The notes below the pieces were generated by a model. That model was not told where the DNA came from. It did no database searches and saw only the letters and a program-made list of their open reading frames with translations. A DNA stretch of 64,000 bases from Desulfatibacillum alkenivorans DSM 16219 (GTDB lineage: Bacteria; Desulfobacterota; Desulfobacteria; Desulfobacterales; Desulfatibacillaceae): positions 1-64,000 of the forward strand of contig NZ_FQZU01000032.1 in NCBI RefSeq assembly GCF_900142135.1, written 5' to 3'. The position numbers and the translations under genes are program-made. Positions 441 to 16,108 of the stretch are shown here, in pieces (position 1 is the first letter of the stretch; every line of letters starts with the position of its first letter).

Positions 441-556
441 GAGCGGACTATGCAATGGAGCAATCCACGAGGGAGGAAGGCGGTCTGTGTTTGCTGGCAA
501 AGCCTTGATTTGTGTATAACTTTATATTGCATTGTCATACAGAAAAGGAGGCTTTC

Positions 557-711: not shown

Positions 712-757
712 CTATACCTCCCGTTTTAAACGCGATTTCAAGTGTGAAGAAACGATT
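698..757 (+). pseudogene. YafQ/RelE-type toxin remnant, only the N-terminus left
   Basis: The ATG at 698 begins MRTINYTSRFKRDFK, closely resembling the N-terminus of YafQ-like mRNA interferases (T.YTSRFKRD.KR). It overlaps the antitoxin tail by 14 bases, as in intact dinJ-yafQ modules. After about 18 codons the similarity ends in a poly-T stretch, directly before the hairpin repeat units starting at 772. The remaining frame reads on to a TGA near 861 with no toxin-like sequence. The catalytic part is absent, so this is a dead fragment, perhaps truncated by insertion of the repeats. Confidence 0.55.
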
Positions 758-771
758 TCCCCTTTTTTTTT

Positions 772-1004
772 TGTCGGGTCGCTACACAATAGGTCTCAGA
801 AGGCCATATCGTTTCTGACTGACGCCTCCGGAATTATGATTGTACAAGATAGCTCCGCATGACCCGACCTACAAATTAACAATATTTCAGGATGTTATGT
901 AGGCCGGGTCATGGGGAGCACTGGAAATGCCCTTGAACTCAAATAATGCTTTTTTGCTGCATTTGAATTAGTAAAATAGGAGGTCAGGGCGCAGCGACCC
1001 GACA
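772..1004. repeat. Two tandem hairpin (REP/MITE-like) units sharing GTCGGGTC/GACCCGAC arms
   Basis: The outer ends are a perfect 12-base inverted repeat (TGTCGGGTCGCT at 772-783, AGCGACCCGACA at 993-1004). An inner inverted repeat at 858-873 and 898-913 matches in 15 of 16 bases. Read another way, the block is two units of about 95-105 bp (773-868 and 903-1003), each bounded by GTCGGGTC- and GACCCGAC-type arms. No open frame inside looks like a transposase, so it would be non-autonomous. It sits immediately after the truncated toxin fragment. Confidence 0.6.
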
Positions 1005-1084
1005 GTTTTTGTGAAAGAATGGGGACAGGTCTACGTTTGGCGCTTGTGAAATTGTAAAGATTTTTCGAACAGTTCATATTCAAT

Positions 1085-1125
1085 AAAAAACCCCCGGCGG
1101 GAGGAATTTCCGCCGGGGGTTTTTA
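1085..1125. terminator. Strong bidirectional terminator
   Basis: A perfect 10-bp GC-rich stem (CCCCCGGCGG at 1091-1100, CCGCCGGGGG at 1110-1119) has an A-run on its left and a T-run on its right, so it can work on both strands. It lies about 50 bases beyond the stop of the glutamate synthase operon that ends at 1172 on the minus strand. Confidence 0.88.
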
Positions 1126-1171
1126 TATTCGGACAAACGGTTGGGATCGACCGTTCAGGGTATACCACGAT

Positions 1172-3496
1172 TTAGCCCATGGGATCGTTTTCCACCAGGG
1201 TCCAGATGCCGCAGGGGCAGGCGCCGGCGCAGAATCCGCAGCCGATGCATTTTTCCGGATCCACGACCATTTCAAAGCGCTTGCCTGGCTCTTCCACACG
1301 GGAGATGGCGGCCTGGGGGCAGATGGCCTCGCAGATGCCGCAGTCGCGGCAGGTTCCGCAGGAAGAGCAGTCCATGGCGCACGCATCAACTTTTTCGAAC
1401 TCCCTGACGCGGGGATTGAAGTAGGCCATGCTCACGCGGGTTTTGTCGATCTGGGGCTTTTCCAGGGCCTCGGGCCTTTTGCCTTCCATGATGGCGGTGA
1501 TGGCCATGGCGGCCCTGCGTCCGGCGCCGATGGCGTCGGTGAGGAGTCCGGGCATGACAATATCGCCGATGGCGAAGAATTTGGAATCCGTGGTCTGGAA
1601 GTTTTCGTCCACTTCCACGAAGCCGCGCACGGTCTTGACGGTTTCGGGCAGAAAGGCCGTGTCCGGGGCGTCGCCGATGGCGACCACCACGGTGTCGGCG
1701 TCCAGGAAGTCGCCGTTGGTCAGGGCCACGCCCTTATCGGTGATTTCCTTGGTGAAAACCGGCCACAGGAAGGTTGCGCCTGCTTCTTCGGCGGCTTTTC
1801 TTTCCTCGCCGAAGGAGGCGGGCTTTTGCACGTCGATGAGCGTGATTTCCGTTGCGCCCAGGCGATGGGCTTCGGTAGCCACGTCGCAGCCCACGTTGCC
1901 GGCGCCGATGATAACCACGCTCTTGCCGGGTTTGACGTCGCCGGCCTTGGCTTTGCCCAGGAAGTCCAGAGCGGTTGCGGCGTTTTCGATGCCGGGCAGG
2001 GGCGGCATTTTGGGCTTGCCTGCGCCTGCGGCTACGACCACAAACTCGTGCTCTTCCTGGAGTTTGGCCACGCCGGCCTGATCCAGTTTCTTTTCAAGCT
2101 GGACGTGGGGCAGGGCTTCGGCCATGCGCTCCAGTTCCTTGTCGATCACTTCCTTGGGAATTCTGGTATTGGGAATGACCGAGGACATTTTGCCGCCCAG
2201 TTTCTTTTCCATGTCGTAGATGACGGCTTCGTGTCCGGCCATGCGAAGCTGCCAGGCCACGGAGATGCCGGCCACGCCGCCGCCGATAACGGCCACTTTT
2301 TTGCCGGAAAGGGGCGGAAGCTCGGGCAGGCCGGCGTTGATGCTGGCCTTGCCCAGGACCTTGACGTCAATGGGCGCCATGCCGGACAGGTTGCGCGTGC
2401 AAGCCTGCATGCACAGGTTGGGGCACAAATAGCCGCAAACGGTTGCCGGGAAGGGCGTGAAGTTGAGCGCCATATCCACGGCTTCGTCCACTCTTCCTTC
2501 ACGGATCATGGCCCAGCGCTGTTGAACAGGGATTCCTGAAGGACAGGAGGACTGGCAGGGGGAGGCGTACACCTGATCTTCCCACACCGGGACGAAGCGG
2601 CGGAACTCGCCGGTTGCGACCACGGGAATGGTTTCCCGCTCCACCTTGACCAGATCGCCTACCAGACCGCCCGCGCCCAGTTCGCTTTCCCACACGTTTT
2701 TCGCGAAATCCTGCATGGACATGCGGGGCGTCGCGGATTTTTGCATGGGCGTTTTGGCTAGGATAAGCTGCCAGTCTTCGATCCTGGCCAGTTCGTCGTA
2801 AAGCTCGGGCTTTTCGATTTTTTCCAGGAAGTTTTTCAGGTTGGTGAACAACCATTCCTGGGTTTCCTCGTCAATAGGGACGAGGCTGGCGTCTGCCTGG
2901 GAGAATCCCTTGAAAGGCCCGCGCACGAAAACCTGGCCGCGCACCATGCCCACGCAGGGGCGGTAACCCAGCACGTTATCGGGATTTTGGGGGTCGTATC
3001 CGCAAACCACGGCTACGCCGCCGGCCATGAACTCCGCAAAATAGTCGCCCACGGATCCCAAGACCCACAGCTCGGGCGGTGCAAAGCGGGGATTGGCCTT
3101 GGTCATGGTCATGCCGCGGGAGCCGATGTTGCCGCCGATAAACACCTTGCCCTGGGCCATGGCGTTGGCGGTTCCGTTGGTGGCGTGTCCGAGAACGGCG
3201 ATTTCGGCGCCGGCGTTCAGCCAGCCCGTATCGTCGGAGGCGGGGCCTTTGACGGTGATGCGGGTGTTGGGGAAGCCCATGGAGCCCAGGCGTTGCCCCG
3301 GGGACCCGGTTATGGTGATGTTAACGGGTTCATCGCCGGCGCTCCACAGTCTGCCGCCCAGGCCGTGCTGGCCTGCGGCGTCGATTTCCAGGTTTCTTTC
3401 ACCGGAAGCCACGGCGTGTTGTATCTGCTCTTCCAGGACTCGGGACTCGATGCGATGCCCCTTGTCGATTCCCGAAAGTTTGTATACGTTTTTCAT
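1172..3496 (-). CDS. Glutamate synthase: GXGXG domain fused to GltD-like FAD/NAD(P)H oxidoreductase and ferredoxin domain
   Basis: This 774-residue protein joins parts that are often separate. Residues about 30-200 form the glycine-rich beta-helix of the GltB C-terminus (for example GGRLWSAGDEPV). From about 315 a GltD-like module follows, with the N-terminal Fe-S cysteines (CQSSCPSG, CGYLCPNLC), an FAD-binding GGGVAG near 404 and a second nucleotide-binding GAGNVG near 530. Residues about 705-760 hold two [4Fe-4S] motifs (CGTCRDCGICEAICP and CIGCGFCAGACP). It should pass electrons from NAD(P)H or ferredoxin to the FMN subunit encoded just upstream. It is the last gene of a three-gene operon, 50 bases after the FMN subunit gene and just before a strong terminator. 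The extra C-terminal ferredoxin suggests flexible electron donors, which is inference. Confidence 0.87.
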   Translation of the reverse strand: MKNVYKLSGIDKGHRIESRVLEEQIQHAVASGERNLEIDAAGQHGLGGRLWSAGDEPVNITITGSPGQRLGSMGFPNTRITVKGPASDDTGWLNAGAEIAVLGHATNGTANAMAQGKVFIGGNIGSRGMTMTKANPRFAPPELWVLGSVGDYFAEFMAGGVAVVCGYDPQNPDNVLGYRPCVGMVRGQVFVRGPFKGFSQADASLVPIDEETQEWLFTNLKNFLEKIEKPELYDELARIEDWQLILAKTPMQKSATPRMSMQDFAKNVWESELGAGGLVGDLVKVERETIPVVATGEFRRFVPVWEDQVYASPCQSSCPSGIPVQQRWAMIREGRVDEAVDMALNFTPFPATVCGYLCPNLCMQACTRNLSGMAPIDVKVLGKASINAGLPELPPLSGKKVAVIGGGVAGISVAWQLRMAGHEAVIYDMEKKLGGKMSSVIPNTRIPKEVIDKELERMAEALPHVQLEKKLDQAGVAKLQEEHEFVVVAAGAGKPKMPPLPGIENAATALDFLGKAKAGDVKPGKSVVIIGAGNVGCDVATEAHRLGATEITLIDVQKPASFGEERKAAEEAGATFLWPVFTKEITDKGVALTNGDFLDADTVVVAIGDAPDTAFLPETVKTVRGFVEVDENFQTTDSKFFAIGDIVMPGLLTDAIGAGRRAAMAITAIMEGKRPEALEKPQIDKTRVSMAYFNPRVREFEKVDACAMDCSSCGTCRDCGICEAICPQAAISRVEEPGKRFEMVVDPEKCIGCGFCAGACPCGIWTLVENDPMG

Positions 3497-3546
3497 TTAT
3501 CCAACTCCATCCGGCAAAGAGCCGGCTTCAGGTTCTTTGTCGGTTC

Positions 3547-5181
3547 TTAAACCACGTAGTCGATGCTCAGCCTCTGCGCGATGTTGTAGTCGTTGATTCC
3601 CAAAGCGTCGGACATGCCGATGGGCAGGGAGGTGGATCTTCCCAAGGGCGCCACGATCTTTTTCAACTCCGTATCAAAGGCCAGGTACATGTCCACCAAG
3701 CGCTGGGCGACCTGTTCGGGATCCAGTCTTCTGTAAAGCCTGGGATCCTGAGAGGTGATGCCCTTGGGGCAACGGCCGATATTGCAGATGTTGCAACGGT
3801 CGGTTTCGCTGCCCAGGCAGCCGGCGGCCGCCTGCATGACGTACTTGCCGGTCTGCACGCCGCTGGCGCCCAGCATGATGAGGGCCGCGGCATTGGCGGC
3901 CAGGTTGCCGCGCTTGCCTACGCCGCCGCCCGCGAACAGGGGCAGTTCGTTCTGCTTGCCGATCTTGACCAGATTCAGGTAGCAGTCCCTGATGTTGCTG
4001 GCGATGGGGTGGCCCATGTGGTCCATGGACACGTTGTAGGCTGCGCCGGTTCCGCCGTCCTCGCCGTCGATGGCCAGGCCCGCGGCAATGGAGTTGCGGG
4101 CCAGGTTGTTCAACACGGCGCCGGAGGTGGAGGTGGCCGAAATCTTGGGATAGACGGGCACGCGGAATCCCCAGGCCATGGACATGGACTGGATCATCTT
4201 GGCCACCGCCTCTTCAATGGAGTACTTGGTCTGGTGCGTGGGCGGGCTGGGAAGGCTGACGCCCTGGGGCACGCCGCGGATAGCCGCAATGAGCTTGTTG
4301 ACCTTGTGCCACATCAACAGGCCGCCGTCGCCGGGCTTGGCGCCCTGGCCGTACTTGATTTCCACGGCGCAGGGATCCACCTTCATCTCGGGCAGGGCGT
4401 GAATGATTTCGTCCCATCCGAAATACCCGGAGGCGATCTGCAGAATCACGTATTTGAGAAAGCGGGACCTGAGCAGCCGGGGGGGGCATCCGCCTTCGCC
4501 GGTGCTGATGACCACGGGCATGCCCACTTCTTCGTTCAAGTAGGTGACGCCCATCTGGAGCCCTTCCCACATGGTGGGGGAGAGGGCGCCGAAGCTCATG
4601 CCGCCGATGATCAGGGGGTAGATCTCCCGGACCGGAGGAATCCAGCCCTGCTCCCTTTGGAGCTTGAGGTTCTCCTCGGGGGGCAGAACCCTGCCCAAAA
4701 GGGTGCTCAACTGGAAGTCGTGGCGGCCGGCGTCCAGGGCCGGGTCCGTGAGCATGGAGATTCTGGTGAACTTGATTCTGTCCAGAACGCCTTCCGGATC
4801 GTTCCTGCGGCCGCCCCTGCGGCGGGGAATTCCGCCTTTATTGTTGTGGAAGCGCAGCTTGTCCGCTTCGTCCGAATGCATGGGTATGATGGCGTCGTTG
4901 GGGCAAACCAGGTTGCACATGCCGCATCCCACGCATGCGTTGTCGGGATTGGTCTTTTGGCGCACGCCGTAAAAGGATTCAAAATTGTTTTCCGGAGCTT
5001 TTTCCAGACCCATGGGGGGCTGGATGACCCGCTTCCGGTACACGGCCAGTTCCAGGGCCAGCATGGGACAGGCGGCGGCGCACCGGCCGCAGAGGGTGCA
5101 CTTATCCTTATCCCATGCAATCTGCCATGGTAAGTCTTTTACGCACAGAGTGCTTGGGGTAATGATTGTGTCTGCCTGCAT
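3547..5181 (-). CDS. Glutamate synthase FMN-binding synthase subunit with N-terminal 2x[4Fe-4S] (GltB central-domain type)
   Basis: The protein has 544 residues from the ATG at 5181, which has a GGAGG ribosome binding site about 8 bases upstream; a longer frame reaching 5310 runs into the preceding gene and is unlikely. Residues about 27-40 (CTLCGRCAAACP) and 85-97 (CVGCGMCNLVCP) are ferredoxin motifs. The rest is the FMN barrel of glutamate synthase, with IIGGMSFGALSP, EIKYGQGAKPGDGG and DGEDGGTGAA. Near residue 463 is CNICNIGRCPKGI, the three-cysteine [3Fe-4S] signature. The protein would convert 2-oxoglutarate and ammonia to glutamate, with ammonia from the amidotransferase encoded just upstream. 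The two reading frames overlap by 43 bases, which suggests translational coupling. The arrangement resembles archaeal split GOGAT. Confidence 0.9.
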   Translation of the reverse strand: MQADTIITPSTLCVKDLPWQIAWDKDKCTLCGRCAAACPMLALELAVYRKRVIQPPMGLEKAPENNFESFYGVRQKTNPDNACVGCGMCNLVCPNDAIIPMHSDEADKLRFHNNKGGIPRRRGGRRNDPEGVLDRIKFTRISMLTDPALDAGRHDFQLSTLLGRVLPPEENLKLQREQGWIPPVREIYPLIIGGMSFGALSPTMWEGLQMGVTYLNEEVGMPVVISTGEGGCPPRLLRSRFLKYVILQIASGYFGWDEIIHALPEMKVDPCAVEIKYGQGAKPGDGGLLMWHKVNKLIAAIRGVPQGVSLPSPPTHQTKYSIEEAVAKMIQSMSMAWGFRVPVYPKISATSTSGAVLNNLARNSIAAGLAIDGEDGGTGAAYNVSMDHMGHPIASNIRDCYLNLVKIGKQNELPLFAGGGVGKRGNLAANAAALIMLGASGVQTGKYVMQAAAGCLGSETDRCNICNIGRCPKGITSQDPRLYRRLDPEQVAQRLVDMYLAFDTELKKIVAPLGRSTSLPIGMSDALGINDYNIAQRLSIDYVV

Positions 5182-6275
5182 ATGTGAACCTCCTGACGAT
5201 CCGATGAAACTATTGCCGTATCCAAATGCATTGGTTGAAAATCCAAACTCTTGTCGCGATCGGGAATCACCGCGTCCAGCCCGCATTCCTCGGAAGAGAA
5301 CGCGTAGCACCCGGGCCTGCCGCCCACGATGCCGGGACGGAGCTTCTTCCGGTCCTGGACCATGAACAGGGACTTGTTGGGCAGGCAGCCGATGACGCAG
5401 TTGGGGCCGTCGATGATCAGCCTCCGGCAGGTCTGCCTGAGCTGTTTCAGGAAGGCCTTGTTGGGGTGGTCGCCCATTTCGTCGTCGGACAAGGGGGTGA
5501 TGACATGTTTGTACGCTTCCAGGGGAAGCCCCAATTGATATGTGGAATAATGGAGAATGTGCGCGAACACCTCGGAGTCGGAGTTGTAGCCCATGTATCC
5601 GGGGAATCCTCTGGAAGAGAGGTATTCCTTGATGGGCACGAAGGCCGTGTTTTCCCCGTTGGTCATGGTGCAGATTCCCTGGATGAAAAAGGGGTGGCAG
5701 GCGTACAGGTTGATGGCGTAATTGGTGTTCTGCCGGCCCTGGGCCATGATGACCCTTGCCATGAGCTCCTTCCGGTCCAGGCCGAGATGCTGGACAACGG
5801 TCAGGGGGTCGCCGATCTCTTTAATCATGATGGCGTCCGGCCAGAAGCTGAAGACGATCATGTCTCCGTCGGCCTCGCCCATCCTGCGGAGGTCCAGGCG
5901 CACTTTCATCAATTCAAAGGCCCGTCTTTCCGCGCTGTATGCATGCCATTCATCGGGGTACTCATAGGCTCTGATGAGGTATACATCCCGCTGGGGAACG
6001 CCCGGAGGAGAGGGCTTGGGCGCCTTGATGGTCACCTTGTATTTGGTGGTGAAGCCCAACTCCATCATATGGACATCCAGCTTTTTCAAACCTTTGGATG
6101 TAAAAATCCCGGAGAGCACCGGAGCATCTTTAAGGTCTTCAAAAGGACCGCTCAGGTCGGAGAGGAAGAGCCCCACGCCCGAGCCGTCATGACCTTCCCG
6201 CATCACGTCCAAAGCCTTGGCCGCCACCAACGGGGAGAAAGGCTCGTCGCTAGTCATGGCAAATAAACGGCACAT
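5139..6275 (-). CDS. Glutamate synthase glutaminase subunit (class II glutamine amidotransferase)
   Basis: The protein of 378 residues begins MCRLFAMTSDEPFSP, placing the catalytic nucleophile Cys2 directly after the initiator methionine as in class II (Ntn) amidotransferases. HDGSGVGLFL and YMGYNSDSEVFAH fit the GATase II fold of the GltB N-terminus. It hydrolyses glutamine and supplies ammonia to the FMN subunit. The ATG at 6275 has AAAGGAG about 11 bases upstream. As the first gene of the three-gene operon (then FMN subunit, then GXGXG-GltD protein), it is transcribed from an upstream region with a plausible sigma70-type promoter at 6350-6378. Its last 14 codons overlap the next gene. Together the three proteins account for all domains of a complete GOGAT. 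Confidence 0.88.
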   Translation of the reverse strand: MCRLFAMTSDEPFSPLVAAKALDVMREGHDGSGVGLFLSDLSGPFEDLKDAPVLSGIFTSKGLKKLDVHMMELGFTTKYKVTIKAPKPSPPGVPQRDVYLIRAYEYPDEWHAYSAERRAFELMKVRLDLRRMGEADGDMIVFSFWPDAIMIKEIGDPLTVVQHLGLDRKELMARVIMAQGRQNTNYAINLYACHPFFIQGICTMTNGENTAFVPIKEYLSSRGFPGYMGYNSDSEVFAHILHYSTYQLGLPLEAYKHVITPLSDDEMGDHPNKAFLKQLRQTCRRLIIDGPNCVIGCLPNKSLFMVQDRKKLRPGIVGGRPGCYAFSSEECGLDAVIPDRDKSLDFQPMHLDTAIVSSDRQEVHICRQTQSLPQALCA

Positions 6276-6349
6276 TTTTGAATTAACTCCTTTATAAAAC
6301 TACAATCTTGTTGTTTTTTAGAGAATAAATTGCTTTCTCGTAAACAGCC

Positions 6350-6378
6350 TTTTTATCTCATTCCCGCATAAATGGCAA
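6350..6378 (-). promoter_or_regulatory. Candidate promoter of the split glutamate synthase operon
   Basis: On the minus strand TTGCCA (6378-6373) and TAAAAA (6355-6350) are separated by 17 bases in an AT-rich stretch about 75 bases upstream of the start at 6275. A separate inverted repeat CGCCGG-N6-CCGGCG lies upstream near 6436-6453. Assigned by eye; the -10 match is moderate. Confidence 0.4.
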
Positions 6379-6510
6379 GACTTTTTAGGAATCGTTTTTA
6401 TCAACGCTTTTTCCGGGCCTTGAATTCATTGATTCCGCCGGAAAAAACCGGCGAATTCCCCGTTAAAAATCCATGGCCTTTAATTCGATCCCCTTGCATA
6501 AAAATGTAAA

Positions 6511-6552
6511 AAACGGCCCCTTTCGGGATGTTGAAAAACCGAAGGGGGCCGT
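6511..6552 (-). terminator. Terminator of the 6593-8245 gene
   Basis: Arms ACGGCCCC(T/C)TTCGG pair across a short loop (about 6513-6526 and 6539-6552) with one mismatch. On the minus strand the stem is followed by a T-rich run (A-rich on the plus strand at 6500-6513). It separates the FMN paralog gene from the glutamate synthase operon, so the two are probably transcribed independently. Confidence 0.75.
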
Positions 6553-6592
6553 GATGGAAAATAGCGTCTTTTTAGGGTTTTAAAACCGGGCC

Positions 6593-8245
6593 TCAGGAGT
6601 TGAGAATTTTCTTGGCGCGCTCGTCGTTGGCTTCGGTGATAAAGGCGATGCCCGTTTCCCTGGCCGTCTCCCGGTTGGCGGCGAAAATGTCGTCCCGGGA
6701 AATGGCCTTGAGGCTGAATTTCCGGGCGCCGGCCATGAATTGCTGCAGTCCGCAGGAGAGTTTGTCCATGAGGGTGCAGAAGGCGATGGCGCCGTACGGG
6801 ATGTTTTTCATTTCGTCCTTCCCGACCTTTTTTTCCACGTCAAAATAGGAAGCGAAGATTTCCTCGGGGGCGGCGCCAATGTTGGAAACGGTTTTGGGCA
6901 GGGAATCCCAGTTGCCGGAGACGGCCTCCCTGCGGTCCGGATGGAGGGCGCCTTCGATATTGGAGCCCAAAAAGCCCGGAATCATGATGGCCCGGCCCAT
7001 GCACACCATTTTGGTATAGGGGGCGCCCAGGGCGAGGGCCTTGAAAACATGGTCTTCCAGGGCGAAGCCGCCGGCGAAGGACATGTCCACCACATCCAGG
7101 CCTCTGGCCGCCAAAATGGAGGCGTATTCGTGGGCTTTTGAATGGAGGTGGATGGACGGGACTCCCCAGGCCTGCATCATGTTCCAGGGGCTCATGCCAG
7201 TGCCGCCGCCGGAGCCGTCAATAGTGAGGAGATCCAGCTTGGCGTCGGTGGCGAACTTGACGGCCATGGCCAGCTCTTCCATGCCGTAGGCCCCGGTTTT
7301 GAGGGATATGCGTTTGAAGCCGATGCTGCGCAGATAGTCCACGGTGGCCATAAAGGCTTCCTGCACCTGGGCCGCGTCGTCCAGGTCGGTGTTTCCCAGG
7401 CGGCTGTGGCGGGCGAAGGCGTTTACGGCGCCTTCCTTAAAGCCTCTTTGGACTTCCGGAACCGTGGGGTCAGGGTCCACTACGTATCCGCGGTTTTTCA
7501 GGAACAGGGCGTAGTCCAGGCTTTTCACCTGGATTTCTCCTCCAATGTCCTTGGCGCCCTGGCCCCATTTGAGCTCCATGATGCATTTGTCGCCGTATTT
7601 ATCCGCCACAAACTCAGCCACGCCGTTGCGCGCGTCCTCCACGTTCAACTGCACCAGAATTCCGCCGTAGCCGTCAAAATACCGCATGTATCCGTCAATG
7701 CGCCGCTCCAGTTCCGGGGCGCTTTTTATCTTTCCTTTGCGTTCCGATCCCGGGCCGATGTCAGACTTCCGGTCCACGCCCACCACGTTTTCGCCGATGA
7801 CCACGGGCATGCCGCACAAGGCGCCGCCGATGGAAAAGGAGTCCCAATACTTGGCGGCGATGAAGGTGGAGCCCAAGGCGCCGGTTTGCAGGGGGAGGCG
7901 GGTTTTTGTTTTGATTTCCTTGCCGAATTCCGATTCCAGGCAGGCGTTGGGAAAAATGCAGTCGTCAGGCGAGTTGCTCAGGCCTTCTTTCAAACCGTGG
8001 GCGCCGTAAGCCCGGCCCTGCACGCGCAAGGAATTGTACGAAACGCCCACATGGGTGGTGTTGTTTGCGCCGGCCGTCACCGTTCCGAAATCGCGGGGAT
8101 ATAAGAGCTTGCGCCCGATGAGGCTGGACGACCAGGTTTCGCATTTTCCCATGCAGTCGGCCCTGCACAGGGAGCACAGGCTGGATTCCGTGGGGTTGCC
8201 CCGATTGGTGGTTCCGATTGCGTCGTTGTTCTTGGCGAATCGCAT
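6593..8245 (-). CDS. FMN-binding glutamate synthase-like protein, paralog 1
   Basis: The protein has 550 residues from the ATG at 8245 (GAGGGAG upstream); the frame extends to 8341, but the paralog at 8615-10267 starts at the matching methionine. It contains the glutamate synthase FMN barrel signatures ELKWGQGAKDIGGEIQV and DGSGGGTGMSPWN. It lacks the CxxCxxxxCP [3Fe-4S] motif present in the operon subunit at 3547-5181. Instead it has an N-terminal cysteine set, CSLCRADCMGKC (C-x2-C-x3-C-x3-C, near residue 20). It has no amidotransferase or GXGXG domain. The fold suggests an FMN enzyme acting on a 2-oxo acid or amino acid, but the reaction is unknown. It is transcribed alone, between two terminators. 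Confidence 0.8.
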   Translation of the reverse strand: MRFAKNNDAIGTTNRGNPTESSLCSLCRADCMGKCETWSSSLIGRKLLYPRDFGTVTAGANNTTHVGVSYNSLRVQGRAYGAHGLKEGLSNSPDDCIFPNACLESEFGKEIKTKTRLPLQTGALGSTFIAAKYWDSFSIGGALCGMPVVIGENVVGVDRKSDIGPGSERKGKIKSAPELERRIDGYMRYFDGYGGILVQLNVEDARNGVAEFVADKYGDKCIMELKWGQGAKDIGGEIQVKSLDYALFLKNRGYVVDPDPTVPEVQRGFKEGAVNAFARHSRLGNTDLDDAAQVQEAFMATVDYLRSIGFKRISLKTGAYGMEELAMAVKFATDAKLDLLTIDGSGGGTGMSPWNMMQAWGVPSIHLHSKAHEYASILAARGLDVVDMSFAGGFALEDHVFKALALGAPYTKMVCMGRAIMIPGFLGSNIEGALHPDRREAVSGNWDSLPKTVSNIGAAPEEIFASYFDVEKKVGKDEMKNIPYGAIAFCTLMDKLSCGLQQFMAGARKFSLKAISRDDIFAANRETARETGIAFITEANDERAKKILNS

Positions 8246-8406
8246 AAATAATTCTCCCTCATATGACTGGAGTGATTGAAAGGGCATGGAAAAAGTCCTG
8301 TAATTGAAAACGCCGGCGCGTTTGCGGAACAATGGTCTCAATGGTTTGGCGGCTGGTGCAGACCCTGGCGCCAGGCGCGTCCCTTACGCCGTTTACTTCA
8401 TGTAAA

Positions 8407-8435
8407 AAGGTAAAGACCGGTCCAGCCGGTGTCAA
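8407..8435 (-). promoter_or_regulatory. Candidate promoter with embedded inverted repeat upstream of FMN paralog 1
   Basis: On the minus strand a perfect -35 TTGACA (8435-8430) is followed after 17 bases by TACCTT (8412-8407). Between them lies ACCGG-N5-CCGGT (8416-8430), a symmetric site placed where a regulator could bind. A second perfect palindrome, CTGGCGCCAG, lies at 8365-8374 in the likely leader. No ANTAR-type hexaloop pair was found in this leader, unlike the paralog's. Confidence 0.5.
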
Positions 8436-8529
8436 CATTTTTGGCGGATAGGCCTGAATTTCCAGGGGAATTGCAAGAATGGGAGTAGAATTTATTAGTA
8501 TGAGTGACAGGAGTTAAGAATAGCTAAAA

Positions 8530-8570
8530 AAAACAGCCCCGGCCGGGGAACATGATCCGGCCGGGGCTTT
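8530..8570 (-). terminator. Terminator of the 8615-10267 gene
   Basis: A perfect 12-bp stem, AGCCCCGGCCGG (8535-8546) with CCGGCCGGGGCT (8557-8568), has an A-run at 8526-8533 that becomes a U-run on the minus-strand transcript. It lies about 45 bases beyond the stop codon of FMN paralog 2. Confidence 0.87.
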
Positions 8571-8614
8571 GAAGGAACGGAGCGCAAGGCTCCATGACAC
8601 AAACTCAATTAACT

Positions 8615-10267
8615 TTAGGAGTTGAGGATTTTTCTGGCGCTTTCGTCGTTGGCGTCCGTGATGTGCGTGATGCCCGTCTCTGCAGCGGTTTCCCGGTTGC
8701 CGGCGAAAATGTCGCTTCGGGTGATCTGGTTGATCTGGAATTTCCTGGCGCCGGCCATAAGCTGCTGCAGTCCGCAGGAGAGCTTGTCGGCCATGGTGTA
8801 GAAGGCAATGGCGCCGTAAGGAATGTGCTTCATTTCGTCCTTGCCGACTTTCTTTTCCACGTCAAAGTACGAAGCGAAGAGTTCCTCGGGGCAGTTTCCG
8901 ATGGAGGAGACGGTCTTGGGCAGGGAGTCCCAGTTGCCGCAAACCGCTTCCCGGCGTTCCGGATGGAGGGCGCCTTCGATGTTGGAGCCCAAAAATCCCG
9001 GGATCATGATGGCCCGGCCCATGCACACCAGTTTGGTGTAGGGGGCGCCCAGGGCGATGGCCTTGAAGATATGGTCTTCCAGGGCGAAGCCGCCGGCAAA
9101 GGACATGTCCACAACCCTTTCGCCCTTGGCCGCCAATATGGAGGCGTATTCATAGGCTTTGGAGTGGAGGTTGATGGAGGGCACGCCCCAGGACTGCATC
9201 ATGTTCCAGGGGCTCATGCCGGTGCCGCCGCCGGAGCCGTCGATGGTCAAGAGGTCCAGTTTGGCGACCGTGGCGAACTTGATGGCCATGGCCAGTTCTT
9301 CCATGCCGTAGGAGCCGGTCTTCAGGGTGATGCGTTTGAAGCCGATGCTGCGCAGATAATCCACGCTGGCCATGAAGTCTTCCTGCACCTTGTCCACGGA
9401 GCTCAGGTTGGTTCCGCCCAAACGGCTGTGGCGGGCGAAGGATTTGATGGCGCCTTCCTTGAAAGCGGTCTGGACTTCGGGCCTGGTGGGGTCGGGGTCC
9501 ACAACGTATCCGCGTTCTTTCAGGAACAGGGCGTAGTCCAGGCTGGTCACCTGAATTTCTCCGCCGATGTCTTTGGCGCCTTGGCCCCACTTAAGTTCGA
9601 TGATGCATTTATCGCCGTACTTATCAACCACGAATTCGGCCACGCCGTTGCGGGTGTCTTCCACGTTAAGCTGAACTATAATTGCGCCGTATCCATCATA
9701 GTAGCGCAAATATCCGTTAATGCGCCTTTCCAGTTCGGGCGCGCTTTTGATTTTGCCTTTCTTTTCCCCGCCGGGCTGAATCTGGGACTGCCTGTCCACG
9801 CCCACCACGTTTTCGCCGATTACCACAGGGATGCCGCACAGGGCGCCGCCGATGGAAAAGGAATCCCAGTATTTTGCGGCGATGAACGTGGAGCCCAATG
9901 CGCCGGTCATCATGGGGATGCGGGCTTTGGTCTTGATTTCCTGTCCGAATTCCGTTTCCAGGCTGACGTTGGGGAAGATGCAGTCGTCAGGGTCGTTGGA
10001 AAGCCCCTGGCTTAAGCCGTGAGCGCCGTAAGCATAGCCCTGAATGCGCAGGGAGTTGTACGAAACCCCTACATGGGTGGTGTTGTTGGCGCCGGCGGTG
10101 ACCAGTCCAAAATCCCGGGGATACAACAGTTTACGGCCAACCAGGCCGGACATCCAGGTTTCGCACTTGCCCTGGCAGTCGGCCCGGCACAGGGTGCACA
10201 AGCTGGATTCCGTGGGATTGCCGCGGTTGGTGGTGCCGATGGCGTCGTTGCTTTTTGAAAAACGCAT
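8615..10267 (-). CDS. FMN-binding glutamate synthase-like protein, paralog 2, with ANTAR-type leader
   Basis: This 550-residue protein is colinear with and very similar over its whole length to the product of 6593-8245, so the two genes arose by tandem duplication. It carries the FMN-site signatures ELKWGQGAKDIGGEIQV and DGSGGGTGMSPWN and the N-terminal cysteine set CTLCRADCQGKC. It lacks the [3Fe-4S] motif of ordinary glutamate synthase. The start at 10267 has GAGGGAGAGAAG upstream. The leader (10354-10436) has two hexaloop hairpins, the second overlapping an intrinsic terminator, so expression is probably controlled by antitermination by the GAF-ANTAR protein encoded divergently at 10547. 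The substrate is unknown. Nitrogen metabolism is likely from the family and from known ANTAR regulons, but this is inference. Confidence 0.8.
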   Translation of the reverse strand: MRFSKSNDAIGTTNRGNPTESSLCTLCRADCQGKCETWMSGLVGRKLLYPRDFGLVTAGANNTTHVGVSYNSLRIQGYAYGAHGLSQGLSNDPDDCIFPNVSLETEFGQEIKTKARIPMMTGALGSTFIAAKYWDSFSIGGALCGIPVVIGENVVGVDRQSQIQPGGEKKGKIKSAPELERRINGYLRYYDGYGAIIVQLNVEDTRNGVAEFVVDKYGDKCIIELKWGQGAKDIGGEIQVTSLDYALFLKERGYVVDPDPTRPEVQTAFKEGAIKSFARHSRLGGTNLSSVDKVQEDFMASVDYLRSIGFKRITLKTGSYGMEELAMAIKFATVAKLDLLTIDGSGGGTGMSPWNMMQSWGVPSINLHSKAYEYASILAAKGERVVDMSFAGGFALEDHIFKAIALGAPYTKLVCMGRAIMIPGFLGSNIEGALHPERREAVCGNWDSLPKTVSSIGNCPEELFASYFDVEKKVGKDEMKHIPYGAIAFYTMADKLSCGLQQLMAGARKFQINQITRSDIFAGNRETAAETGITHITDANDESARKILNS

Positions 10268-10353
10268 GTTCTTCTCTCCCTCTTCTATGAAGACCTCATC
10301 AATAACTCGGCTTTTTTGGCCGCCCTCCCTTGGACGAGCACCTTCAAAATGCC

Positions 10354-10392
10354 AAAAAAAAGACGTCTCACCTATTACAGGCGGACGTCTTT
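10354..10392 (-). terminator. Leader terminator (attenuator) upstream of FMN paralog 2
   Basis: On the minus strand AAAGACGTC (10392-10384) pairs with GACGTCTTT (10367-10359); inner bases CGCCT/AGGTG extend the stem and a U-run of at least seven follows (A-run 10354-10360). It lies about 87 bases before the start codon at 10267, inside the leader, so it would stop transcription before the gene unless prevented. Confidence 0.85.
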
Positions 10393-10436
10393 GTCCCTTG
10401 TAATCACGGGTTTGGCGTGCACCCCGTTGTGCCGCC
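10375..10436 (-). promoter_or_regulatory. ANTAR-type RNA target: P1 and P2 hexaloop hairpins overlapping the leader terminator
   Basis: On the minus-strand RNA, hairpin P1 (10436-10414) has stem GGCG-GCAC / GTGC-(A)-CGCC around a six-base loop AACGGG. Hairpin P2 (10403-10375) has outer stem TTACA/TGTAA and inner stem GGAC/GTCC around a six-base loop AAAGAC. Both loops have A at position 1 and G at position 4, the established ANTAR recognition rule. P2's loop and 3' arm are the 5' arm of the terminator at 10354-10392, so the two structures exclude each other. ANTAR protein binding to P1-P2 would therefore favour read-through into the FMN paralog 2 gene. Confidence 0.87.
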
Positions 10437-10453
10437 CGCCCGGAATTTAGCTA

Positions 10454-10482
10454 TACTTAATTATTTGTTTGGTTTTTGTCAA
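10454..10482 (-). promoter_or_regulatory. Candidate promoter of the ANTAR-controlled leader
   Basis: On the minus strand a perfect TTGACA (10482-10477) lies 17 bases from TAAGTA (10459-10454) in a strongly AT-rich stretch; the overlapping TATAGC is 21 bases away. Transcription from here would start just before hairpin P1 of the ANTAR leader. The -35 is strong, the -10 weak, which may indicate an activated promoter. Confidence 0.5.
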
Positions 10483-10510
10483 TAACTTTTTTCGGCCCAA
10501 AGCCCCAAGA

Positions 10511-10539
10511 TTGACTTTTTCCCTTTTTAAGGATATTCT
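10511..10539 (+). promoter_or_regulatory. Candidate promoter of the GAF-ANTAR gene
   Basis: TTGACT (10511-10516) and TATTCT (10534-10539) are separated by 17 bases. The expected transcription start falls within a base or two of the ATG at 10547, so the message might be leaderless or nearly so. An AAGGA at 10529-10533 could be a ribosome binding site for a transcript starting further upstream. Confidence 0.45.
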
Positions 10540-10546
10540 CCAAACC

Positions 10547-11263
10547 ATGGAAAAAGCAGCCCCCAAAGAATACGACGCCTATATAAAAGGTCTCATGGAT
10601 ATCAGCCGAGCCATCACCTCGGAGTTGTTTTTGGAAGACATCCTTAAACTCATTGTCCTGGTGACCGCCAAGGTCACGGGCGTTGACATCTGCTCCCTGT
10701 GGCTGGTGGAGGAAGGCAAGAATCCTAATAAAAAGGTCATCCGGCTGGCCGCCACCCAGGCCATGGACCCGGATTACGTCATCGACCGGACCTTGTGCAT
10801 GGGCGAGGGCGTGGTGGGGCACGTGGCCCAGTCCAACACCGCCCTGATTGTGAAAAACGTCCTGGAGGATCCCCGCTTCAAGGAAAAGGACATGGCCAGA
10901 AAGCTGGAACTGGTCTCCATGGCCAGCGTGCCCATGACCATCGGCGGGGAAGAGGTCATCGGCGTTCTGAACTGCTTCACCTGCAACACCCACGATTTTC
11001 CCGAGACCGAAATCAACCTCATCCGCACGGTGGCCAACCAGGCCTCCCTGGCCATCCACAACGCAAGGCTCATGGTCCGCACCAAGGTCATCGAGCAGGA
11101 GCTCGCCACCCGCAAAGTCATTGAAAGAGCCAAGGAAATCGTCATGGCCCGCAAAGGGCTAACCGGGGACAAGGCTTTTCGGTGGATTCAAAAAAAATCC
11201 ATGGACAACCGCAAGACCATGAAGGAAATCGCCGAAGCCATCATTCTTTCGGAAGATATGTAA
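10547..11263 (+). CDS. GAF-ANTAR transcription antitermination regulator
   Basis: The protein has 238 residues from the ATG at 10547 (MEKAAPKEYDAYI). Residues about 15-165 form a GAF sensor domain (GEGVVGHVAQSNTALIVKNV and a VPMTIGGEEVIGVLN strand pair). A helical linker leads to a C-terminal three-helix ANTAR domain (about 175-236) with KVIERAKEIVMARKGLT, DKAFRWIQKKSMDNRK and MKEIAEAII, the expected spacing for the family. ANTAR domains bind tandem hexaloop RNA hairpins and prevent terminator formation. Such a target is present 110 bases away in the divergent leader of the FMN paralog 2 gene. There is no receiver domain, so the input is probably a small molecule sensed by GAF; the ligand is unknown. 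It is transcribed divergently from its likely target. Confidence 0.9.
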   Translation: MEKAAPKEYDAYIKGLMDISRAITSELFLEDILKLIVLVTAKVTGVDICSLWLVEEGKNPNKKVIRLAATQAMDPDYVIDRTLCMGEGVVGHVAQSNTALIVKNVLEDPRFKEKDMARKLELVSMASVPMTIGGEEVIGVLNCFTCNTHDFPETEINLIRTVANQASLAIHNARLMVRTKVIEQELATRKVIERAKEIVMARKGLTGDKAFRWIQKKSMDNRKTMKEIAEAIILSEDM

Positions 11264-11550
11264 ATAGAATTGTTGAGGCGGGAGGCGCCTATTTTGGCCA
11301 GCATCAGTGAAAAGGCGCCGGCTCAGGCGGGAAGCCGAGTCAGGCCAGTTCCTCTTTCTTTTTAGCAAAGCGGGATACCGTCGTAATAGTCCCATCCTCT
11401 TGGTGAAAGAACGGCATTTTAAAGCCTAAACAAAAACCCCTCACGAACTTAACCTAAAATTAATCCTTTCATGCTGAATTTGTAACAAATCCACTCTATA
11501 TTGCGCTCGCCTGTCATGGGCGCGACTATGAACCTTAACCGGAGTGGAAT

Positions 11551-14034
11551 ATGAGCCGTTCCATGCCTGCTCTGCCTGCCGAAGCGATTTCGCCCGCCTT
11601 TGATCATTCCAATTCATTCATCGCCAAAGACAGGGGGGCGTACTGCAAGCTGTTGGGCGCCGATCCCCGGCATCCCGAGTCCTTCATCCAAAATCTGCCT
11701 TTCGCCCCGGGCGACGCCACCGCCGGCACGGAAAACGAACTGCAGTCCGCCGTCAAAGGGGCGCCGGAGGACGTGGACCTGCCTTCCATTATTGCGGCTT
11801 CCAATTATTTGAAGAACATCCGCAAGCGGAGCCTTTCGGGAGAGGCGCCGGCCCAGCTCGTGACGGATTTGGAGCAGTTCCTGGCCGACAATCCCGGCAA
11901 GATCTGGGAGAACAGCTGGGTGCGTTTTCCCAAAGGCGCGTTGAACGAGACAGCCATGCGGGTTCTCAATCATGACCTGCTGGAGGACAAACGTGCGCCC
12001 CAGGGGCCTATGCGCGGAGACGCCCGCAAGTTTTCGTTCAAGCGGGAGGGCCGGGAGTTCTTTCGCCTGCCCATCAGTTATATATTGAAGATTTCCCTGG
12101 CCCAGGCTTTGGGGGAGATGCCGCCCAGCCTGAATCTGGTGCGGGAATTGGGGCATCGGATGATGTCGCATTTTTCCAACGACAACACCTCGCCCGAAAC
12201 CTTTTCGTTTTACACGGTCAAGCTGCGCAGGAAGAATCGCATGGGCCGGGGAATCGCAGGCGAGACCGCGCTGCGTTTTCTGGTCTGCCAGGCTTTGATC
12301 CAATACGCCAACCGGTCTTTTGGGCTGCTTTCCCAGGGCCAGGAAGCCGTGTTGTACATGGCGCCCAACCCGCCCACGCGGCAAAAGGCCTTGAACGACC
12401 TCATCTCCGACGCGTTTTACCGGGATCTTTTCATGAGTCCGTGCCTTTCGGGCTGGGATCGGGGCGAGGACAAGCACAAGTACATGGCCTTGTGCCATCA
12501 GGTGCTATCCCGCAGCCAGTTGAACGCCGTGGCCAAGCTCCGGGAGGCCCACATCATCAACAACAACCTGGTGGTGCTGCCCAACACCTCCAATGTGAGC
12601 CTGGCCAATAACGGAACGCACCTGAGCCTGGGCAGCCTCAAGCTGGGCAGGCTGTTGACGGACCCGAATTCGGGCTTCGGCGCCCATGACGAAAAATACC
12701 TGGGCGATCTGGTCATAAAATTCTGCGAGCACTTTCTCCCCTTGTTTGTGGGGACCTACAGCGCCGCGCCCTATCGCCTGGACTTTACGGATTTTCATCC
12801 GGAAAAGGCTTTGGGATACCTCCCCCACGAGTTGGACTTCACCCATTTGCGCATGATCTGGCGGCGGTGGAAGAAAAAGGCCAAGCTGAAAATCCTGGGC
12901 CAGCCCTGCACCCCTTTCGGCCCCTTGTGGCTGGATCGGCCTTTGAGAAAGGTGTTCGGCCTGTGCGGGGATTTTGTCCCGGACTTCCGGTTGATCGACT
13001 ATCTGGTCACTCTGAAAAGCACGGAGGAAAGCCACGCCCTGGACGGAACCCTGGGCAATGATTTGCGTTTGAAGCGGGATTTGGACGCCCTGGGGGTCTT
13101 CGACGAAAGCATGAGCCTTTACCTTTTATACAAGCAAAGGCAGTTTGCGTTCATGGGTTTTTCCGGGTTTGAAGGCCGTCATTACAGTTTGTTCGAAAGC
13201 CTGTCAACGGACATGGTGCACGCGGCCAATCTGCAAACCCTGATTACGGCCTACGCCTTCAAGTGCATATTGAACGGCAAGATTTCCCACGAAGACCTGC
13301 CCAGCGACCCCTTTACCGAAAGCGAACGCAGGCAGGTGTTTTTCGGGGCGGCCATTGGGATTCCCACCTTTTTTGTGAACAAAAAAACCAAGAACCGCTT
13401 TATGCTCCGGGTGCTGCGGGACGCCAAAAAAATGCGCTTCAGCCGCCGCTATCCCGGATACTTGCGGGTTTACAACCTGGAGTACAGGATTGCCCTGATC
13501 AACATGATCCGGGCGGAGGCCCAGGACCTGATCGAACTCATGGGCATGGAGGAAACCGTCCAGGACCTGGAGGAGCGGGTGCGTTTTCCTGAAAAGTTTT
13601 CCGCTGCGGGCAAGCTGACCGAGTCCATCCTGGAAAAGGCAAACGCCAAAAAGCCCATGGAGCTTTCCGGCCGGGAGTTCGCCCAGGCCGCGGAGTATTA
13701 TTACCGGAACGATTTGCGCATGAAGCATATGTGCGAGGCCTGCGACTTTCTTTCCGAAGAATTGGAGCGCCTGGACGGCAAGGCCCTGTTGGGGCGGGGC
13801 CGCTACCGGGAGATGCTGAACGCCGTCCTGGAAGGGGAAGGGGCCTTGCAGTTTTTGTCCCGGGTGAAGCTGGACATCCTGCGGGGCGATGCGCCTGCCA
13901 GCGTTTTGGAGCGCTTTTTGGCTTTATGCATTATAGCGGTGGGCGCGCAACTGCCCGAATACGAGAGAATATTAGATGAACCTGATGAAAAAAGCCTGGA
14001 GCGGGTCTTTCCCGCACCAATACATTCAGCGTAG
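11551..14034 (+). CDS. Large protein of unknown function, first gene of a lipid-related operon
   Basis: I do not recognise this 827-residue protein. It starts at ATG 11551 after a purine-rich CCGGAGTGGA and shows no signal peptide or transmembrane segment, so it should be cytoplasmic. It is rich in basic and aromatic residues, with segments such as FSFYTVKLRRKNRMGRG (about 220), LPNTSNVSLANNGTHLSLG (about 345) and LKILGQPCTPFGPLWLDRP (about 445). The C-terminal third is mostly helical. Its last 59 bases overlap the start of a phosphatidylserine decarboxylase gene, and an Lgt-like membrane protein follows, so a role in membrane lipid or lipoprotein modification is a guess from context only. 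Length and composition argue for a real gene. Confidence 0.75.
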   Translation: MSRSMPALPAEAISPAFDHSNSFIAKDRGAYCKLLGADPRHPESFIQNLPFAPGDATAGTENELQSAVKGAPEDVDLPSIIAASNYLKNIRKRSLSGEAPAQLVTDLEQFLADNPGKIWENSWVRFPKGALNETAMRVLNHDLLEDKRAPQGPMRGDARKFSFKREGREFFRLPISYILKISLAQALGEMPPSLNLVRELGHRMMSHFSNDNTSPETFSFYTVKLRRKNRMGRGIAGETALRFLVCQALIQYANRSFGLLSQGQEAVLYMAPNPPTRQKALNDLISDAFYRDLFMSPCLSGWDRGEDKHKYMALCHQVLSRSQLNAVAKLREAHIINNNLVVLPNTSNVSLANNGTHLSLGSLKLGRLLTDPNSGFGAHDEKYLGDLVIKFCEHFLPLFVGTYSAAPYRLDFTDFHPEKALGYLPHELDFTHLRMIWRRWKKKAKLKILGQPCTPFGPLWLDRPLRKVFGLCGDFVPDFRLIDYLVTLKSTEESHALDGTLGNDLRLKRDLDALGVFDESMSLYLLYKQRQFAFMGFSGFEGRHYSLFESLSTDMVHAANLQTLITAYAFKCILNGKISHEDLPSDPFTESERRQVFFGAAIGIPTFFVNKKTKNRFMLRVLRDAKKMRFSRRYPGYLRVYNLEYRIALINMIRAEAQDLIELMGMEETVQDLEERVRFPEKFSAAGKLTESILEKANAKKPMELSGREFAQAAEYYYRNDLRMKHMCEACDFLSEELERLDGKALLGRGRYREMLNAVLEGEGALQFLSRVKLDILRGDAPASVLERFLALCIIAVGAQLPEYERILDEPDEKSLERVFPAPIHSA

Positions 14035-15010
14035 AACCGGTGGAATCGTGGACGAAGCCCTGGTGGGCGACCTGGCGGTGCTTGGGCTTTACAGCACGGC
14101 CCGGGAAAAGGCGGGCTGGCTTTTCAACGCACTCACCAGCGCCCGGGCGTCTCGGGTTTTGGGATTTTGCAATTACGACCTGCCCATTTTAAATCCGGGC
14201 CGCAACGTGCGCGTTCTGGCCGAAAAAATGGGCGCCGACCTGGACGAGTGCGTGGATCCTCCCGAGTACTTCACCAGCGCCCGCCGGTTTTTCGAGCGCA
14301 AAATCAAATACTGGCAGACCCGGCCCATGCCGGAAGATCCCCGGGCCGTCGTCTCTCCCGCGGACGCCCGGGTGATTGTGGGCTCCCTGGAGGAGCACTC
14401 CAGCCTGTATCTCAAGGAATCCCTGTTCGGGTTTGAGGACTTGCTGGGATTGGACAAGCCGGGGTGGCTCAGGGCCTTTAAGGGCGGGGATTACGCGGTG
14501 TTTCGCCTGACCCCGGACAAATACCATTACAACCATTCCCCCGTGGCCGGCCAGGTTGTGGATATCTACGAAATTCACGGCGCCTATCATTCCTGCAACC
14601 CCGGCGCGGTGATTATGGAGGCCACGCCGTATTCCAAGAACAAGCGGGCGGTGACGATCATCGACACGGACGTTCCCGGCGGAACCCAGATCGGCCTGGC
14701 CGCCATGATCGAGGTGGCGGCCATGATGATCGGCGACATTGTTCAGTGCTACAGCGGCAGGGAGTATGACTCCCCCCAGGAGGTCGAACAGGGATTATTT
14801 TTGGAAAAAGGACAACCCAAAAGCCTGTACCGGCCGGGAAGCTCCACGGACGTTGTTTTGTTTCAAAAGGGCCGCATGCAGTTCAGCGGGGACTTGCTGC
14901 AAAACACTTTGAGGACGGACGTGCAAAGCCGGTTTTCCCAGGGCTTTGGAAGAGCCATGGTGGAGACCGAGGTTTTGGTTCGCGAGCAGATTGGCTGCGC
15001 ACTCTCCTGA
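13976..15010 (+). CDS. psd: Phosphatidylserine decarboxylase family protein
   Basis: The protein has 344 residues. VVSPADARVIVG is the conserved N-terminal Ser-Pro-Ala-Asp-Ala segment, KYHYNHSPVAGQV carries the conserved histidine, and RPGSSTDVVLFQKG near residue 285 is the GSS/T self-cleavage site that generates the pyruvoyl group. The enzyme would decarboxylate phosphatidylserine to phosphatidylethanolamine or act on a related lipid. At 344 residues it is somewhat longer than short bacterial forms. The ATG at 13976 overlaps the upstream unknown gene by 59 bases; a second ATG at 13985 (MKKAW) is also possible. The overlap suggests translational coupling to the unknown 827-residue protein. 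Confidence 0.88.
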   Translation: MNLMKKAWSGSFPHQYIQRRTGGIVDEALVGDLAVLGLYSTAREKAGWLFNALTSARASRVLGFCNYDLPILNPGRNVRVLAEKMGADLDECVDPPEYFTSARRFFERKIKYWQTRPMPEDPRAVVSPADARVIVGSLEEHSSLYLKESLFGFEDLLGLDKPGWLRAFKGGDYAVFRLTPDKYHYNHSPVAGQVVDIYEIHGAYHSCNPGAVIMEATPYSKNKRAVTIIDTDVPGGTQIGLAAMIEVAAMMIGDIVQCYSGREYDSPQEVEQGLFLEKGQPKSLYRPGSSTDVVLFQKGRMQFSGDLLQNTLRTDVQSRFSQGFGRAMVETEVLVREQIGCALS

Positions 15011-15049
15011 TAGAAAAAATATTACATTGAATTGGAAAGGATGTATATC

Positions 15050-16108
15050 ATGGCGCAATACGCCGATTACATTTTCGTGGCCTGCCTGGCGGCCGTGCTG
15101 GGCGCGGTCCTGGCCTGGGGATTCAAAACCCTGCCTGACGCTTCCTGGCAGTTCGTGGCCTCGGCGCCCAAAAAGCGCAGCGCCGACGGCAAAAGCTGGG
15201 AGGCCGTGAACTTTACTTATTACGGCTTGATCATCGCCTGCTCAAGCGCTTTCAGCGTGACCCTGGCCGTATTCCTGCTTGGGGCGGCTTCCGTGCCGGT
15301 CTGGTCCTCGTTGGCCGTCACCCTGGCTTTGATGATGATTTGCATTCCCTCGTCCAAAATTCTGGCCCGGATTGTGGAAAAGAAAAAGCATACCTTCACC
15401 GTGGGCGGGGCGTTGTTTATCGGCGTGCTGACCATGCCCTGGATCGTCTGGGGATTGAAGGCGGCAGCGGGAGAGGGCGCCGGCATTCAGGTCCTGCCCG
15501 TATGCGCGGCCATGGCCGTCGCCTACGGATTCGGCGAGGGCCTGGGCAGGCTGGCCTGCATCAGCTTCGGCTGCTGCTACGGCAAGCCGTTTTCCCAGGT
15601 GCATCCCGTGCTGCAAAAGCTCCTGAACGGAAAGGGCTTTGTGTTCTCGGGCGAAACCAAGAAAATTTCCTACGCCTCGGGCCTGGAAGGGCGGAAGGTC
15701 TTCCCGATTCAAGCCCTGACAGCCGCCATATACTGCGCCAGCGCCCTGCTGAGCACCCTGCTTTTCCTGCGGGGGCATTTTGGGCTGGCCTTGCTGCAGG
15801 TGTTGATGGTCACCCAGGTGTGGCGGTTTTTTTCCGAAATGCTCCGGGACGACTACCGGGGAGAGGGGAAAATATCCGCCTATCAGATCATGATGATTAT
15901 CGCCATATTGTATACGGCCTTGCTGCCCTTGGTCTTTCCCATGGGCGAGGCCCTGAAGCCCGCCCTGGCCCTGGGCTGGAAGGCTGTCTGGTCTCCCATT
16001 GTGATATTAGCCGTCCAGGCCTTGTGGGCGGCTTTATTCGTCTATTACGGTAAAAGCACGGTGACCGGCGGCGCCATTTCCTTTCATGTGATGAAGGATC
16101 ATATATAG
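15050..16108 (+). CDS. Prolipoprotein diacylglyceryl transferase-like (Lgt family) membrane protein
   Basis: The protein has about 352 residues from the ATG at 15050, which has GGAAAGGA 8 bases upstream; a TTG at 15032 in the same frame is less likely. It is strongly hydrophobic, with about seven or eight transmembrane segments. GLGRLACISFGCCYGKP resembles the Lgt signature region (GR.G.F..GC.YG.P), and RFFSEMLRDDYRGEGKIS resembles the Lgt C-terminal arginine motif. The classical GRIGNF asparagine is replaced, so it may be a divergent member with another acceptor. It follows the phosphatidylserine decarboxylase by about 40 bases and is followed by a terminator, completing a three-gene operon that suggests phospholipid-derived group transfer. 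Confidence 0.72.
   Translation: MAQYADYIFVACLAAVLGAVLAWGFKTLPDASWQFVASAPKKRSADGKSWEAVNFTYYGLIIACSSAFSVTLAVFLLGAASVPVWSSLAVTLALMMICIPSSKILARIVEKKKHTFTVGGALFIGVLTMPWIVWGLKAAAGEGAGIQVLPVCAAMAVAYGFGEGLGRLACISFGCCYGKPFSQVHPVLQKLLNGKGFVFSGETKKISYASGLEGRKVFPIQALTAAIYCASALLSTLLFLRGHFGLALLQVLMVTQVWRFFSEMLRDDYRGEGKISAYQIMMIIAILYTALLPLVFPMGEALKPALALGWKAVWSPIVILAVQALWAALFVYYGKSTVTGGAISFHVMKDHI

Follow-up and report, generated by a model that had tools for sequence, protein, structure and literature searches.

A leader RNA of Desulfatibacillum alkenivorans DSM 16219 very probably acts as an ANTAR-responsive transcription attenuator of the gene downstream of it (8615-10267), which encodes a glutamate synthase-like FMN protein and is called the FMN gene below. 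The leader (10436-10354) was studied in a window of 64,000 nt, i.e., the whole stretch of DNA that was analyzed, and its features are compiled in Table 1. Sequence comparisons give good support to the view that it is a real and conserved antitermination switch of the ANTAR type, for which protein binding and read-through are predicted. The hairpins, the loops, the overlap with the terminator, the conservation, the covariation, and the co-occurrence with ANTAR proteins were taken from sequence; the start site, the binding, the direction of control, and the dimerisation of the protein are what we infer.

Table 1. Positions of the leader elements and the neighbouring genes in the window
Feature	Position	Strand	Remarks
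GAF-ANTAR protein gene, 238 aa	10547-11263	plus	divergent neighbour; proposed antiterminator
TTGACA (-35-like) element	10477-10482	minus	5' of leader
P1 hairpin	10436-10414	minus	GGCG GCAC (AACGGG) GTGC a CGCC; loop 10428-10423; stem GCAC/GTGC, then GGCG/CGCC across the bulged A
P2 hairpin core	10396-10383	minus	GGAC (AAAGAC) GTCC; loop 10392-10387; extendable to 10404-10374
Intrinsic terminator	10392-10354	minus	helix 10392-10359; U-run 10361-10354 (eight T)
FMN gene, 550 aa	10267-8615	minus	glutamate synthase-like; regulated gene downstream of leader
Strong hairpin and T-run	8535-8568	minus	after FMN gene; -29.1 kcal/mol, z -4.95
Paralogue of FMN gene, 84% identical	6593-8245	same as FMN gene	downstream
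GOGAT-like genes	5139-6275, 3547-5310, 1172-3496	same as FMN gene	label of 5139-6275 is our own, no profile match

The leader RNA and its genes

A sequence-only reading of this DNA had described two hairpins with the loops AACGGG and AAAGAC, of which P2 and a terminator should exclude each other, in the leader of an FMN gene that has a gene for a GAF-ANTAR protein as its neighbour. All of this was confirmed, the hairpins on the minus strand at 10436-10354. P1 and P2 are tandem hairpins of at least three base pairs with a six-base loop, and both loops begin with A and carry G as their fourth base, as in the dual-hexaloop rule for ANTAR RNAs set out by Ramesh et al. 2012 (PMC3369931). The linker has 22 nt between the 4-bp cores and about 9 nt when both stems are extended. 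The P2 loop and the P2 3' arm serve as the 5' arm of the terminator, and therefore P2 and the terminator are mutually exclusive. ViennaRNA gave -41.0 kcal/mol for the terminator state versus -30.7 kcal/mol for the antiterminator state with both hexaloops. Prefixes of the growing RNA were folded every 4 nt, counted from 10445, and P2 was predicted at lengths of 65-81 nt and the terminator at 85 nt or more. These energies and folds indicate that termination is the default and that P2 needs help, as in known ANTAR leaders. The leader region was also more stable than its shuffled versions (z -4.38, 0 of 200). A scan for simple consensus terminators did not list the leader terminator, the helix of which carries a bulge.

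Pfam matches verified the identity of both flanking genes. The product of the divergent gene had matches to ANTAR (2.9e-20) and GAF (3.6e-20); it scored 72.2 bits with PF03861 (ANTAR) versus a cut-off of 27.3, and it carries the sole ANTAR domain found in this genome. Its best NCBIfam match was NifA (residues 13-202), far below the cut-off of the model. The GAF domain of NifA senses 2-oxoglutarate, and our guess for the signal is 2-oxoglutarate or another indicator of the nitrogen status.

The FMN protein matched Glu_synthase (PF01645) with 8.3e-12 at residues 294-421, with partial coverage of the profile and a score of 45.4 bits versus a cut-off of 20.4. Its AlphaFold model had modest confidence (mean pLDDT 75.9), and the fold search with this model retrieved TIM-barrel oxidoreductases, e.g., glycolate oxidase and IMP dehydrogenase; the glutamate synthases 1ofe and 6s6s were among many TIM-barrel matches. 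A phmmer search at E 0.001 retrieved no solved structure. Profile and model suggest that the protein is glutamate synthase-like and that its fold resembles FMN and related TIM-barrel enzymes. Close to the N-terminus the FMN protein has four cysteines (C24, C27, C31, and C35) that were invariant in 30 aligned homologues and are possibly a metal or iron-sulfur site.

The position of the transcription start was approached via the promoter. The TTGACA element precedes P1 in 45 of the 49 leaders compared, versus 166 of 4900 mononucleotide shuffles, and it was mostly located 40-60 nt ahead of the P1 region. This conservation favours a start just ahead of P1, in the window probably near 10448, and disfavours a start downstream of the hairpins, in agreement with the sequence-only reading, which had required the start to lie upstream of them. 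The -10 match is weak (TTAAGT), and a strict consensus promoter scan listed no leader promoter. The hairpin and T-run 3' of the FMN gene indicate that the transcript, and with it the switch, probably covers the FMN gene alone. Further downstream, beyond the end of the gene 1172-3496, several weak sub-threshold Rfam matches were seen on both strands at 1063-1173, perhaps an inverted repeat that acts as a terminator.

Conservation of the RNA and its ANTAR partner

Homologous FMN genes were gathered from class genomes and from named genomes (best 80 of 552), whose titles suggest that the class is Desulfobacterota. Tandem A1/G4 hexaloops with an overlapping terminator were found in 38 of 124 FMN-gene leaders, which include some genomes counted twice, versus 0 of 620 dinucleotide shuffles. 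A looser pattern, which presets A1 and G4 of the loops and two closing pairs per hairpin, matched 56 of 127 loci, and after removal of six duplicates 50 distinct leaders remained. Because loops and closing pairs are preset, the evidence from covariation is confined to the outer P1 pairs and the terminator. The five P1 pairs outside of the preset two form in 49, 48, 45, 42, and 37 of the 50 leaders, and many types of pair occur. Among 48 distinct rows, pairing reached 91.4% of the P1 cells, and the covariation score of 0.661 exceeded both that of shuffles (0.236, none of 500 as high) and the maximum obtained by sliding (0.236). For the terminator helix the score was 0.299 versus 0.215 in shuffles (0 of 500). 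The three P2 pairs next to the loop were kept in all 50 leaders, the pattern itself having fixed two of these, and the invariant P2 core thus gives no covariation support either way. The compensatory changes in orthologues that had been proposed as a check of P1 and P2 were therefore present for P1, and additionally for the terminator; for P2 the comparison was uninformative.

Alignment A3 contains 45 of the 50 leaders. L037, L050, L064, and L088 were left out (T-run placed too early), as was the outlier L128, which lies 243 nt from its gene; L003 is included without its 3' end. L145 matched the tandem-hexaloop scan with a doubtful P1 and is not in the alignment, and L001, L002, L009, L040, and L041 were skipped as repeats of the window or of L003. 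The linkers between contiguous stems had 9-33 nt in the 50 leaders (median 18 nt), a count that is too high for stems extending beyond a bulge. In the loci with both the motif and an ANTAR gene, the latter was located upstream in the same orientation in 29 rows, with some loci counted twice, and was divergent in three cases, i.e., the window, L003, and L082. In two sites, L199 and L201, the P2 loop starts with G instead of A and G4 is kept, which agrees with the EutV structure, where G4 makes the base-specific contact.

The GAF-ANTAR protein was compared with EutV at eleven listed residues for which Walshe et al. 2022 (PMC8934654) describe roles in RNA contact. Five are identical (R142, K143, K149, M172, and R175), two are replaced conservatively (K147R and Y164F), and four differ (E160G, R168Q, N173D, and R177T). 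The same five were identical in all 27 distinct motif-adjacent ANTARs, in which Y164 is Y (20) or F (7) and K147 is R or K. The EutV residues E160 and R177 were replaced in 27 of 27, R168 in 24, and N173 in 25.

A covariance model, R1, was built from 45 leaders. In a search of positions 1-16000 it detected the leader at 10436-10356 (46 bits, E 2.1e-08) and no second ANTAR RNA at the paralogue or the GOGAT genes; the next-best match (10.3 bits) fell on the leader terminator again, read from the other strand. Genome-wide, the leader was the one significant site (E 8.4e-6), and the next match had E 0.44. The plasmid records had no match to the leader. By eye, six weaker R1 matches in this genome look like plain terminators without the hexaloop pair, and five other matches to the core pattern have no T-run behind them.

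Among 389 class genomes, the R1 RNA was found in 196, an ANTAR in 209, and the FMN protein in 291. RNA and ANTAR occurred together in 165 genomes, ANTAR only in 44, RNA only in 31, and neither in 149, and the co-occurrence was highly significant (Fisher 5.4e-36, relatedness ignored). For the 291 genomes with the FMN protein the respective numbers were 149 (both), 28 (ANTAR only), 26 (RNA only), and 88 (neither), showing that the enzyme often goes without ANTAR control. The class RNA search used a strict filter, and at least 5 of the 44 ANTAR-only genomes do carry the RNA and are its misses (G006, G007, G159, G229, and G304, with L008, L007, L020, L022, and L031). The 31 RNA-only genomes include G105, G017, and G025, and some are nearly complete; gaps in the assembly, weakness of the match, or another partner could account for them.

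R1 was also applied to 24 loci without the pattern, some of which have little upstream sequence, and 11 of them had a match at E 0.01 or better, the remaining 13 none. From 48 more distant loci, seven were matched at this threshold, all of them Omnitrophota (7 of 11 so titled), and 41, including Clostridia, Spirochaetes, and others, had no match at E 0.01. The Omnitrophota locus L122 had three matches (1222-1299, 2748-2808, and 2809-2894), two of which immediately precede the FMN gene at 3001.

Three other explanations were weighed against these results. The leader terminator is strong and would work alone, and A1/G4 in the 50 leaders was preset by the search pattern, so that this count itself is no evidence; the RNA might then be an ordinary attenuator or riboswitch, in which a small molecule, a leader peptide, or another RNA controls the terminator and the hexaloops are incidental. 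This is very unlikely, since P1 covaries around its loop, ANTAR genes adjoin the RNA and co-occur with it, and R1 finds the RNA ahead of unrelated operons outside of its training set. In addition, Rfam contained no family for the leader at the gathering score or up to E 5, and none at the loci of six relatives up to E 0.1. The plasmid records had no match to the leader.

The hairpins might also bind the GAF-ANTAR protein to repress or to act otherwise, e.g., to sequester it, and the literature mentions ANTAR RNAs that titrate the protein or perhaps act on translation. The chance of this is even slighter, because the sharing of one arm by P2 and a terminator that is itself conserved and covarying is the geometry of an antiterminator. 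Equally slight is the chance of a degenerate remnant, i.e., an ancestral RNA no longer working in this strain: P1 of the window has a bulged A and the site scores 46 bits versus up to 75.8 bits in relatives, but loops, terminator, TTGACA, and ANTAR gene are all intact, and L003 from the same genus has kept them with changed stem letters.

RNA targets in other species

The target census comprised 150 RNA sites listed of a larger total in class genomes. In 121 of these the site was ahead of an FMN gene of this family, 83 assigned by coordinates and 38 by tblastn (38-86% identity). The second largest group, 20 sites, was ahead of an FlpD-DUF5981-MTHFR operon, with the MTHFR gene itself present in 19 of the 20 stretches (L188, L191-L194, L196, L200-L202, L204-L206, L225, L240, L244, L245, L254, L256, L257, and L259; L204 and L254 form a tandem at a single operon). 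Four sites precede a gene for a protein that resembles the 844-residue one, which has GXGXG and amidotransferase matches. One site (L189) is ahead of a GltB1-like gene, 68% identical to the GltB1-like gene of the window, and one (L203) ahead of a glutamate dehydrogenase gene (77-1516); three were left without assignment. Because R1 was trained on FMN leaders, the other targets are probably under-counted. For the genome studied here, control of MTHFR was considered and rejected: there are six MTHFR-like matches, and none is on C83, the contig of the significant site.

Judged from these sites, a tie between GAF-ANTAR control and one-carbon metabolism is possible in relatives. A broader proposal is a GAF-ANTAR regulon across Desulfobacterota, and perhaps Omnitrophota, in which one signal would couple glutamate synthesis (the FMN glutamate synthase-like gene, GOGAT subunits, and glutamate dehydrogenase) to FlpD-MTHFR, and in which spacings not tolerated by EutV would be accepted; on this proposal we are evenly divided.

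Proposed mechanism and relation to known systems

As an attenuator responding to the GAF-ANTAR protein, the leader would work as follows. Transcription would start just upstream of P1, and by default the nascent RNA would form P1 and then the terminator, so that transcription would stop some 87 nt before the start codon. With its GAF domain in the active state, the neighbouring GAF-ANTAR protein, presumably as a dimer, would engage the hexaloops of P1 and P2. The bound protein would hold P2 while the polymerase passes the terminator, and the FMN gene would be read.

One of the nearest known counterparts is the EutV/eutP leader of Enterococcus faecalis, which also has tandem A1/G4 hexaloop hairpins with P2 inside the terminator. 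In contrast to EutV, with its phosphorylated receiver, the sensor here is a GAF domain, the target is a glutamate synthase-like gene, four of the contact residues are replaced, and the linkers are mostly longer. The E. faecalis eut linkers have 5-12 nt, with a drastic loss at 14 nt (Ramesh et al. 2012, PMC3369931), and an extension by 20 nt also led to loss (Walshe et al. 2022, PMC8934654). The linker lengths and the replaced contact residues count against the proposed mechanism, as do the genomes in which RNA or ANTAR was found singly. With NasR and the nasF leader of Klebsiella oxytoca the system shares a one-component sensor-ANTAR protein and the link to nitrogen metabolism, but NasR has a NIT nitrate sensor and other target genes; the comparison covered proteins and targets, not leaders. 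One-component ANTARs with NIT, PAS, or GAF sensors are described as a large subclass with two characterised representatives, PAL being one (PMC7496416), and the introduction of PMC3369931 states that by then no GAF- or PAS-ANTAR had been characterised.

The sequence-only reading had regarded ANTAR control of this enzyme family as no textbook case. The novelty implied by this did not hold, since Ramesh et al. 2012 (PMC3369931) had predicted ANTAR RNAs at many nitrogen genes and, in Desulfotomaculum reducens, at glutamate synthase genes; glutamate synthase enzymes also appear there among the genes linked to ANTAR. The RNA rule and the kind of downstream gene are the same; the organism is another one, and in text and Fig. 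9 legend the D. reducens case is a prediction that names neither the sensor domain nor the FMN protein. The novelty is limited accordingly. Beyond that prediction, none of the open-access papers listed, supplements aside, dealt with ANTAR control of the FMN family or of MTHFR. Possibly new are the GAF-ANTAR version kept with the FMN enzyme in many Desulfobacterota and some Omnitrophota, the linkers often longer than in eut, and the targets in other species, including FlpD-MTHFR operons and, at one site, glutamate dehydrogenase.

Taken together, one GAF-ANTAR protein and one detected RNA site make this locus a simple system for finding the signal of the GAF domain. That the switch is conserved points to a shared mode of controlling glutamate synthesis among sulfate reducers, and in relatives the MTHFR sites suggest a link with one-carbon metabolism.
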